A stretch of 40,600 bases of DNA from Candidatus Altimarinus sp. (GTDB lineage: Bacteria; Patescibacteriota; Gracilibacteria; BD1-5; UBA6164), in assembly GCA_020724225.1 (NCBI GenBank), contig DYHI01000006.1:1-40600 (forward strand), in the 5' to 3' direction. Below the pieces are notes generated by a model, which was not told where the DNA came from, ran no database searches, and worked only from the letters and a program-made list of their open reading frames with translations. Of the stretch, positions 4,101-33,832 are shown in pieces (positions within the stretch are counted from its first letter, which is position 1; each line of letters starts with the position of its first letter). Made by a program: the position numbers and the translations under genes.

Positions 4101-5510
<1,410 letters not shown>

Positions 5511-5552
5511 AAAATAAATAACTCTCTGAATTCAGAGAGTTATTTATTTTTT
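5511..5552. terminator. Bidirectional intrinsic terminator
   Basis: AAAATAAATAACTCTCTGAATTCAGAGAGTTATTTATTTT. Confidence 0.85.
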
Positions 5553-11674: not shown

Positions 11675-12145
11675 ATGATTATTCTTTGAATTGATCCATG
11701 AACTACCACAACTTGATTTGCTATAAGTGAAAAAATATGACATAAAATCACTTTAATTGATTATGGTATACTAAAAACTATACCAAAAGTTTGAATTGAT
11801 TTAAAGTTACTTGAAATCTGAAATGATATAAGAATGCTTATAGAAAAGTACAATCCTGAAATAGTAAGTATAGAGAAACTTTTTTTTACAAACAACATAA
11901 AAACTTGAATAGATGTATCTCATGCAAGATGAGTAATAATATATGAATGTATGAAACATAATTTAAGAATACTAGAATATACTCCACTTGAAGTAAAAAA
12001 ATGAGTTACATGAAGCTGAAAAGCAAATAAAATACAATTACAAAATGCTATAAAGATAATTTTTAAATTGAAAGAAATACCAAAACCAGATGATGCTGCA
12101 GATGCTATATGACTTAGCTATATATGAGCTTTAAATTCGAGATAA
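11675..12145 (+). CDS. ruvC: Holliday junction resolvase RuvC
   Basis: MIILGIDPGTTTTGFAISEK...[32 protein letters not shown]...[29 protein letters not shown]...DDAADAIGLSYIG. Confidence 0.95.
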
Positions 12146-12190: not shown

Positions 12191-12267
12191 ATGGACCTAG
12201 CTTAACTAGAAGAGTGTCAGGATTCCGACCCCTGAAGACGTAGGTGCAATTCCTACGGTCCATGCCA
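12191..12267 (+). tRNA. Non-canonical tRNA, apparent anticodon CCG; Arg or reassigned (Trp-like) identity unresolved
   Basis: Acceptor ATGGACC/GGTCCAT, G73, encoded CCA; T arm GTAGG-TGCAATT-CCTAC; anticodon arm TCAGGATTCCGACCCCTGA with 7-nt loop option TTCCGAC; D arm GCTT-AACTAGAA-GAGT. Confidence 0.7.
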
Positions 12268-27523: not shown

Positions 27524-28393
27524 ATGATTAAAAAAATAGCTATATTTTTTATTATTTTACTTGTATTTTTGTTATATTTTTTTATACAAAGATATGATAA
27601 TATAAACAATCTTTTGTTTAAGTACCCTGATTTCCCTATTGACTTTGCATGAGAAATTGTTCCAACTGATTCTAAACATTTTTCAAATACTGAAAAATTT
27701 GATAGAGAGTTTATTGTAACTTCAAATACTTTGTATCAATTTTATCTTTATATTAAAAGGTATTCTTTATATATTCCATATATTGAGATTAAATTAAAGG
27801 AAAATAATATGCCAGATGATTTGAAATATATGGTAATTGTTGAAAGTGCTCTCAGAAATGAGGTCGTTTCAAGTGCTTGAGCAGGTTGAATTTGGCAATT
27901 TATGCCAGAAACCGCAAAACAATATGGCTTAGTTATAGATGACTATGTAGATGAAAGATATAATTTCGAAAAATCTACTGATGCTGCAATCAAGTATTTA
28001 AAAGTAATTTACTCACATTTTTGAAATCGGACTTTGGTACTTGCAAGTTATAATAGATGAGAAAATGCAATTAAACAAGCTTTAAAAGATCAATGAGTTG
28101 AAAGTTATTATGATTTGTATTTAAATGAAGAAACTTCAAGATATGTTTTTAAGGTTTTAGCGGTTAAATATATAATTAAAAATTATTTTGAACATAAAAA
28201 AGTTTTAGATAAGATTATAGGAGAATCTTTTTCTTTACCTAAAACAGAAAGTTTAAATGTATGAAAAGTGGATGATTTAGTAAAGTTTGCTTTAGATAAT
28301 TGACAAAGTTACAATAATTTAAAATTATTAAATCCATGGATTATATGAGATTCATTGCCGGAGTGAGATTGGGAGGTGAAGGTAATAAAATAA
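27524..28393 (+). CDS. Membrane-anchored lytic transglycosylase (SLT domain)
   Basis: N-terminal [43 protein letters not shown]...[18 protein letters not shown][CGG][17 protein letters not shown]. Confidence 0.93.
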
Positions 28394-29121: not shown

Positions 29122-29532
29122 CTTATTTAAAGGCAGATACCAGCCTCGTGAAAATGGGGAGGAAAGTCTGGACACCACAAGGATAGGATAAGAGATAACG
29201 ACTCTAGCTTGAAGATATAATTCATAAACTTCAAGTATGGCTAGTGCCACAGAGACAATACTAGGAATGCAAATTCTGAAAAGTGAAAAGTCATTTGGTG
29301 TTACAATGTTGATTTTGCAAATATTTGCAAGTAAATAGAAGTAGCTACAGATGAAGATTAGAGTAATCTAATTTTGGTAAACCCTATCTGGTGCAATTGG
29401 AATGGTATCTTTATTTGCTTCATTATCCTTTATTGGCTTATAAAGATATACCAAGCTTGACCCAGCGGGTGATCGCGGGGCTAGATAGATTGGTATCTAG
29501 ATACAGAATCCGGCTTATTACCTTTAAATAAG
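29122..29532 (+). ncRNA. rnpB: RNase P RNA (bacterial class A-like)
   Basis: Closing stem CTTATTTAAAGG/CCTTTAAATAAG; conserved GAGGAAAGTCTGGACACCACAAGGATAGGATAAGAGATAACG, TGGTAAACCC, AGATAGATTGGTATCTAGATACAGAATCCGGCTTA. Confidence 0.95.
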
Positions 29533-29561
29533 TATTAAATTATATAATTATAAGTAAATTT

Positions 29562-32239: not shown

Positions 32240-33832
32240 CTATACACTAGTAATTATTTTTCATTTAAGCACCCATTCATCTAGTTCCGTAATTTTTATT
32301 TTTACCTGATCTCAGATTTTTAGTTTTTCATCTTTATCAAAAAATACTTCTTTAAAGTTTCTGGTTCTACCAAAGAATTGTTCGTCTTTTTCTCAGTAAA
32401 TCAGAATATTTTCTTCTCTTCATAACATCATTTTATTTCTTATACTTACTGATTTATTTAAAGCGTTATTTAAAATATGCCATCTTTCAGCTTTTACAGA
32501 ATCAGGAACATCATCAGGATATATCTTGCTTGCTATTGTTCCAGGTCTGACACTATATCTTGCAATATAGGCAAAGTCAAAATTGCATTCTTCAAAAGCT
32601 TTTAGAGTATCTTCAAACATCTCGTCTGTTTCTCCACTATATCAAACTATTATATCTGTTGATATAGAAAAAAGAGGATCTTTTCACCTCAAAAAATCAA
32701 CTTGTTTTTTGAAATCTTCATAAGTATGTCTTCTATTCATTTTTTTAAGCATTTCATTATTTCATGATTGCAATGCAAAGTGTAAGTAATTACACATATG
32801 TTCTAGTTCAAAATGTGCATTTAATATATCCTCAGTCATATCATGTGGATTGCTTGATGTAAATCTTATTCTATCAATTCAAGGTATGTTATTTACTTCC
32901 TCAAGTAATTCTCTGAATGGGGATTTAAATTTATTTGTTTGGCATTGTCATTCCGACCGTAGTGGAGGAATCTGTTTTTTACACAAAACATCATTTTTTC
33001 ATATTTCATTATTAGTTTCTTCGACAGATCTCTCGACTTCGCTCGAGATGACAGTATTATTTGGTAGTCAATTTCATCTATTCCACCTACTTTTTTCTTC
33101 ATTCCATAGTTTTTTATCTACAAACTGTTTTCAATAACTATTTACATTTTGTCCCAGTAATGTTACTTCTTTTGCTCATGCTTGTACTGCTTCCCTACAC
33201 TCTTTTATAATCTCCTCTTTTTTTCTGCTTGTTTCTTTTCATCTTGTATATGGAACTATACAAAATGAACAATAATTATCACATCAAGTTTGTATTATAA
33301 CTGAGGCTTGAGATGGATTATCTCTTAGTTGTTTTGTTTTTAAATAATCATCAAACTTATCATCAGATCAGATTTTTTCTCATAGAATATGACTTAAGAT
33401 AAGTTGTAGGTATTTAATTTCTTCAATTCTAAGAGTAAAGTCTAAATCAGGAATTCTAGGAAAAAGTTTATCATCATTGTTGAAAATTCATTTTTCATCG
33501 TTTAATAATTGTATTTTTCTAGCTCTTTCTCTTTGGTTTCAATCTTGTAAGTATTTTTCATTCATTCATGTTTTTCTAACCATACATCATGTAATTCATA
33601 ATATAGGAAAGTTAGTATTCTTTTTTTTCTTAAATTTTTTTATTTCAGTAGCTAATCAAAATACTCTATCCTCTCATTTTTGTCTTACACTACAAGTATT
33701 TAATATAACTAAATCTGCTTCTTTCCATTCATTTGATTTCATAAATCATGATTGTAAAAGTAGCATATTTATTTTTTCACTATCAGCCGCATTCATAGCA
33801 CATCAAAACGTTTGTATAAAGTATTTTTTCAT
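32240..33832 (-). CDS. miaB: tRNA-2-methylthio-N6-dimethylallyladenosine synthase
   Basis: MKKYFIQTFGCAMNAADSEKINMLLLQSGF...LVILNTCSVRQKGEDRVFGL...[31 protein letters not shown]...VTLLGQNVNSYGK...RIRFTSSNPHDMTE. Confidence 0.96.
32947..33052. repeat. 106-bp paired-palindrome element inserted in frame in miaB
   Basis: GTCATTCCGACCGTAGTGGAGGAATCT ... AGATCTCTCGACTTCGCTCGAGATGAC. Confidence 0.85.

Follow-up and report, generated by a model that had tools for sequence, protein, structure and literature searches.

The stretch of DNA analysed here (the window) comprises 40,600 nucleotides, positions 1 to 40,600 of contig DYHI01000006.1 from the Candidatus Altimarinus sp. assembly GCA_020724225.1, and carries on its + strand, at 12191–12267, a tRNA gene of 77 nt, including an encoded CCA, with the anticodon CCG. 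We read it as the gene of a tRNA-Trp(CCG): a dedicated tRNA by which one family of tiny, uncultured Gracilibacteria (f1) very probably reads CGG as tryptophan, on top of the use of UGA for glycine, with CGA staying arginine. ARAGORN reports one tRNA at exactly these positions, with the anticodon CCG and the label Arg, and the Rfam tRNA model (RF00005) accepts it with 46.6 bits (E = 5.6e-7, cut-off 29), which is the lowest score among the 27 tRNAs found in the source genome.

The acceptor stem has seven base pairs, with its 5' strand at 12191–12197 and A1 paired with U72 (12263), and is followed by the discriminator G73 (12264). The D loop, AACTAGAA (12204–12211), consists of A14, A15, C16, U17, A18, G19, A20, and A21. 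The anticodon arm of 19 nt (12217–12235) comprises five covarying pairs (TCAGG/CCTGA), an A-C closing position, and the 7-nt loop TTCCGAC, with the anticodon at 12225–12227, whereas the T loop, TGCAATT (12245–12251, G at position 55), is carried by a 5-bp stem; all these elements are on the + strand. An initial annotation, made by a model from the letters alone, had described the acceptor and T stems and the encoded CCA in the same way, and was also correct on the D loop without G18 (A18 is found there, and G19 is kept) and on G55. It had not listed an extra outer pair of the anticodon stem (columns 27–45), which covaries as C-G, A-U, or U-A and leaves a variable loop of 4 nt. RNAalifold by itself returns a 9-nt anticodon loop, and folding of the single sequence misfolds the D arm. 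No other tRNA of the source genome is without GG in the D loop and TTC in the T loop.

Orthologues were found by BLAST and then with a covariance model, and all 49 genomes of family f1 were searched in full. The odd tRNA-CCG is present in 36 of them, at 90–103 bits; when the whole class was searched, only G054 from a sister family (96–100 bits) and G071, an f15 relative (73 bits), exceeded ordinary tRNAs, the next matches being ordinary tRNA-Trp(CCA) at no more than 62 bits. The anticodon CCG, A1-U72, G73, and A20 are invariant in the 37 copies compared. Positions 18–19 are AG in 30 copies, CG in 5, and GA in 2, never GG; at position 55, 33 copies have G and the remaining 4 have U. The ambiguity around TTCCGAC noted in the initial annotation, a 9-nt loop or an A-C mismatch, is real and recurs in 19 of the 37 orthologues, with C-G, U-G, or C-A at the closing position in the other 18. 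The G18-Ψ55 contact, which had been called broken, is indeed altered, A18-G55 or C18-G55 replacing it in 33 copies, but G19-C56 can still form in 35 of the 37, so that the elbow has been reshaped and not abolished.

An alignment of 28 copies has 22 base pairs, which are formed in 96% of its cells; double compensatory changes occur at 12 pairs, and the covariation score was reached by none of 500 shuffles; the tRNA is real and not a product of chance. The gene sits just 3' of ruvC (11675–12145, + strand, Pfam RuvC) and 5' of a VF530 gene, and the proximity to ruvC on the same strand is kept at most f1 loci tested. A decaying tRNA or pseudogene, to which the lowest Rfam score of the genome and the non-canonical loops might point, is thus refuted by covariation and conservation; with the spread over the family, the invariant loops, and the retained ruvC linkage added, it has next to no probability. 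A promoter and terminator scan around the tRNA gene found no site directly upstream. Elsewhere in the window, a class A RNase P RNA is found at 29125–29533 (147.9 bits).

The open reading frames (ORFs) of the window are open only when UGA is glycine (53 long ORFs under code 25 versus 6 under table 11), the nearest named relative of the source genome is Candidatus Gracilibacteria STE_160, and the source organism is a Candidatus Gracilibacterium with the UGA=Gly code. CGG makes up 3 of the 11,943 codons in these ORFs, as nearly unused as the initial annotation had it, and CGA is absent. The meaning of the two codons was assessed on sampled stretches of the source genome and its relatives, in which ORFs were called by code 25, CGG and CGA were masked, homologues were aligned between genomes, and residues were tallied per codon. 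In genomes with the odd tRNA (carriers), CGG falls by site majority at tryptophan in 43 positions and at arginine in none or, with each gene family counted once, at tryptophan in 21 and at arginine in none; the source genome alone contributes 6 and 0. CGA stands at arginine in 26 gene families and at tryptophan in none, CGA, CGU, CGC, AGG, and AGA are mostly at arginine sites, and AGG, the control codon, aligns with arginine and not tryptophan in the same test. Standard-code references agree at two sites. The CGG at 28028–28030 (+ strand), the 169th codon of a gene for an SLT lytic transglycosylase (27524–28393), is aligned to tryptophan (TGG) in the relative G010 and coincides with the tryptophan in the motif of SLT transglycosylases (PDB 8rhe: GDWMLALAAYNAGEG); in G010, a CGG fills the W of the fibrinogen-domain motif GGGWT. 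That a conserved, real tRNA goes together with CGG at tryptophan sites is firm.

Another CGG in the window, codon 292 of a miaB-like gene (32240–33832) at 32957–32959 on the − strand, lies within an unaligned insert. In G010, a fibrinogen/intelectin-like domain is encoded by a Gracilibacterium gene (L260:7401–8657, CDMTTNGGGWTLV). For the CGG sites of G071, no PDB homologue was found for the sampled sequence, of which there is little.

The picture differs in genus g13, where none of the eight genomes searched carries the odd tRNA and a normal tRNA-Arg(UCG) is present. In the two genomes sampled from it, CGG stands at arginine in nine gene families and at tryptophan in none (Fisher p = 7e-8 against carriers), a contrast that counts as one or two evolutionary events because the g13 genomes belong to a single genus; inside the carrier group and inside g13, the codon evidence is spread across many genes. 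This contrast bears on a role outside the ribosome, of the kind served by the cell-wall tRNA-Gly of staphylococci, whose T arm reads GUGC instead of GTΨC and whose D loop is without G18-G19. The non-proteinogenic tRNA-Gly shares with tRNA-CCG the missing G18-G19 and the GUGC of the T arm, the conserved loss of G18-G19 together with G55 would weaken an elbow that is used in translation, and CGG is rare. However, anticodon and lineage differ, the neighbours examined (ruvC and VF530) hint at no transferase link, and in f1 CGG is at tryptophan where tRNA-CCG is present and at arginine where it is absent. Because the meaning of CGG in proteins tracks tRNA-CCG, a translational role would explain the data, and a specialised non-ribosomal tRNA is disfavoured to the point of being very unlikely.

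The tRNA body combines elements of two synthetase identity sets. Among the 28 tRNAs of the source genome, A1-U72 together with G73 is found only in tRNA-CCG and tRNA-Trp(CCA), and these tRNA-Trp elements are kept in every one of the 37 copies. The anticodon is CCG instead of CCA, with C34 and C35 kept and G36 in place of A36, for which reason tRNA-CCG would be Trp-type by inferred function only and not a standard tRNA-Trp. The elements of tRNA-Arg(CCG), namely A20, C35, and A or G at position 73, are present as well, A20, C35, and G73 being invariant; the initial annotation had already set A1-U72 and G73 as compatible with tryptophan beside A20 and C35 as compatible with arginine. When the acceptor stem is left aside, the tRNA-Arg(CCG) of G171 matches best (75%), with tRNA-Trp at no more than 71%, and the D arm is almost the same as in tRNA-Arg(UCG). 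Since the D and anticodon arms most resemble the body of tRNA-Arg(NCG), tRNA-CCG probably arose, as far as such short sequences tell, from an arginine tRNA with switched identity.

A20, C35, G36, the Arg-like D arm, and the ARAGORN label would equally suit an ordinary tRNA-Arg(CCG) whose structure is drifting while CGG still means arginine. The CGG alignments reject this reading, and A1-U72 with G73 in all copies and the AGG control, which returns arginine, also argue against it, making it highly improbable; arginine at CGG sites, which the initial annotation had named, together with clear orthology to a normal tRNA-Arg(CCG), as evidence against its reading, is found in no carrier gene family, compared with the 21 that have tryptophan. 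It is likewise unlikely that CGG is ambiguous, with arginine and tryptophan both inserted. The retained ArgRS determinants A20 and C35 and the approximately one third of informative CGG sites that are not tryptophan would be in line with such ambiguity, but arginine is almost never the residue aligned at CGG, with one cell (AGA in G017) compared with 85 cells of tryptophan. Thus, of the three identities left open in the initial annotation, the reassigned decoder is strongly supported, because CGG is at tryptophan positions and A1-U72 and G73 are invariant.

We infer that the cell's TrpRS likely charges tRNA-CCG through A1-U72, G73, C34, and C35, with G36 tolerated, because CGG falls at tryptophan sites and the genome encodes a TrpRS. 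There is one TrpRS match in the source genome and in most f1 relatives. A second TrpRS-like match is seen in a few family members (G010:C8, G028, and G034); a duplicate TrpRS as the explanation was rejected, most carriers having a single match.

With regard to the rest of the arginine decoding set, a pattern-detectable tRNA-Arg(UCG) was found in none of the 36 f1 carriers and in 8 of the 13 non-carriers (p = 3e-6), which represents few events, the genomes being related to one another and all eight coming from two genera. Its absence fits the proposed reassignment because a U34 tRNA is expected to read CGG too; without it, CGG in f1 carriers would be left to tRNA-CCG alone. Further tRNAs that one would expect, among them Val and Arg(UCU), are likewise missing from the source assembly, so that the absence of a tRNA there is weak evidence. 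Carriers G000, G001, G004, G010, and G021 use CGU and CGA as arginine, yet no tRNA with an NCG anticodon was found in them by the patterns tried.

Several observations weigh against the reading of tRNA-CCG as a tRNA-Trp. A20, the main determinant of bacterial ArgRS (PMC9976931), is invariant, and TrpRS would need to accept G36 in place of A36. The identity rule for tryptophan in the survey of Shulgina and Eddy 2021 (PMC8629427) excludes A20 and would label tRNA-CCG as Arg or give it no assignment. A single repeated gene family of G004 supplies many of the 43 tryptophan sites, 21 being left at the family level, and several CGG sites align with other residues (Y, G, S, and M). G054 has the odd tRNA and tRNA-Arg(UCG) together. 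Finally, anticodon-loop patterns for a decoder of CGA, CGU, and CGC in carriers gave nothing tRNA-like in the genomes tested, the exceptions being GCG candidates in G013, G023, and G031. G004 has a local hot spot of the reassigned codon (L251 and L252), an array of paralogous genes with a repeated motif, IPDDILNWAIECE, in which the tryptophan codon is often CGG.

G054, whose tRNA-Arg(UCG) was noted above, has its two copies of the odd tRNA in tandem, slightly different from each other (L200:4754–4830 and 5461–5537). In the anticodon arm both match the copy of G004, a genome of the same genus as the window, which suggests acquisition by horizontal transfer. In sister family f2, tRNAs with the anticodon UCA (L315:936–1014, L328:1341–1419, and L330:299–377) have a D arm without the GG pair; ARAGORN labels them SeC, and their acceptor is of the Gly type (G1-C72, C2-G71, G3-C70, and U73), so that they are probably UGA-reading tRNA-Gly. 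Since they too are without the GG pair, abnormal D loops may be common to both code-changing tRNAs of the class.

As a speculative hypothesis, since the ArgRS determinants A20 and C35 remain, the broken G18-G19/Ψ55 elbow and the longer anticodon helix may displace A20 and in this way keep ArgRS away; the tRNA of G071, in which A1-U72 and G73 occur together with an intact elbow, counts against this step. We can tentatively go further and consider, as a possible but rather doubtful extension, a distinct structural class of reassigning tRNA: a converted arginine tRNA whose broken elbow and lengthened anticodon helix would hide A20 from ArgRS, stop C34 from misreading CGA, or both, letting CGG and CGA differ in a lineage thought to be without I34 wobble.

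The reading of CGG as tryptophan in some Gracilibacteria has already been reported by Shulgina and Eddy 2021, who assigned CGA and CGG to tryptophan in Absconditabacteria, whose code also has UGA=Gly, and predicted CGG=Trp for some Gracilibacteria and arginine for others, possibly via reversion (PMC8629427). Their cases and the present one share CGG=Trp, the class-level lineage, low G+C, rare CGG, and a CCG tRNA, but, unlike in Absconditabacteria, CGA stays arginine in f1 carriers by the CGA counts given above. For one family, the present data bear that report out; they also indicate that CGA takes no part in the reassignment and link the switch to a single tRNA. The text of PMC8629427 contains no description of altered D and T loops, of an extra helix pair, or of a link to tRNA presence, and no report of this tRNA architecture, of a CGG/CGA split here, or of such a link was found in the open-access literature. 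Anaerococcus and the Bacilli clade Onthovivens (PMC8629427, PMC13092985) also combine CGG=Trp and CGA=Arg with a missing tRNA-UCG and tRNA-CCG as the sole decoder; in contrast, these Bacillota presumably read CGA with I34, and a 4-bp anticodon stem is frequent among their tRNA-CCGs, unlike the lengthened stem seen here. It is also longer than the 5-bp stems predicted for CGG-only reassigners and reported for the CCG tRNAs of Absconditabacterales (PMC13092985). An anticodon stem of six positions and a short variable loop are also features of tRNA-Pyl and mitochondrial tRNA-Ser(UCN), the former being likewise without G18-G19 and TΨC (PMC7609411), but tRNA-CCG retains U8-A9 and, in most copies, G19-C56, and its D loop has 8 nt and its variable loop 4 nt; the likeness is one of architecture.

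The unusual tRNA body, with elements of two synthetase identity sets, is of interest for the design of orthogonal tRNAs. Close relatives with and without the odd tRNA, in which CGG would mean tryptophan or arginine, respectively, form a natural set in which the order of steps in the reassignment of a sense codon becomes testable. If the proposed decoding is true, NCBI code 25 does not cover the full code of this family, and the annotated proteins mistranslate CGG as arginine.
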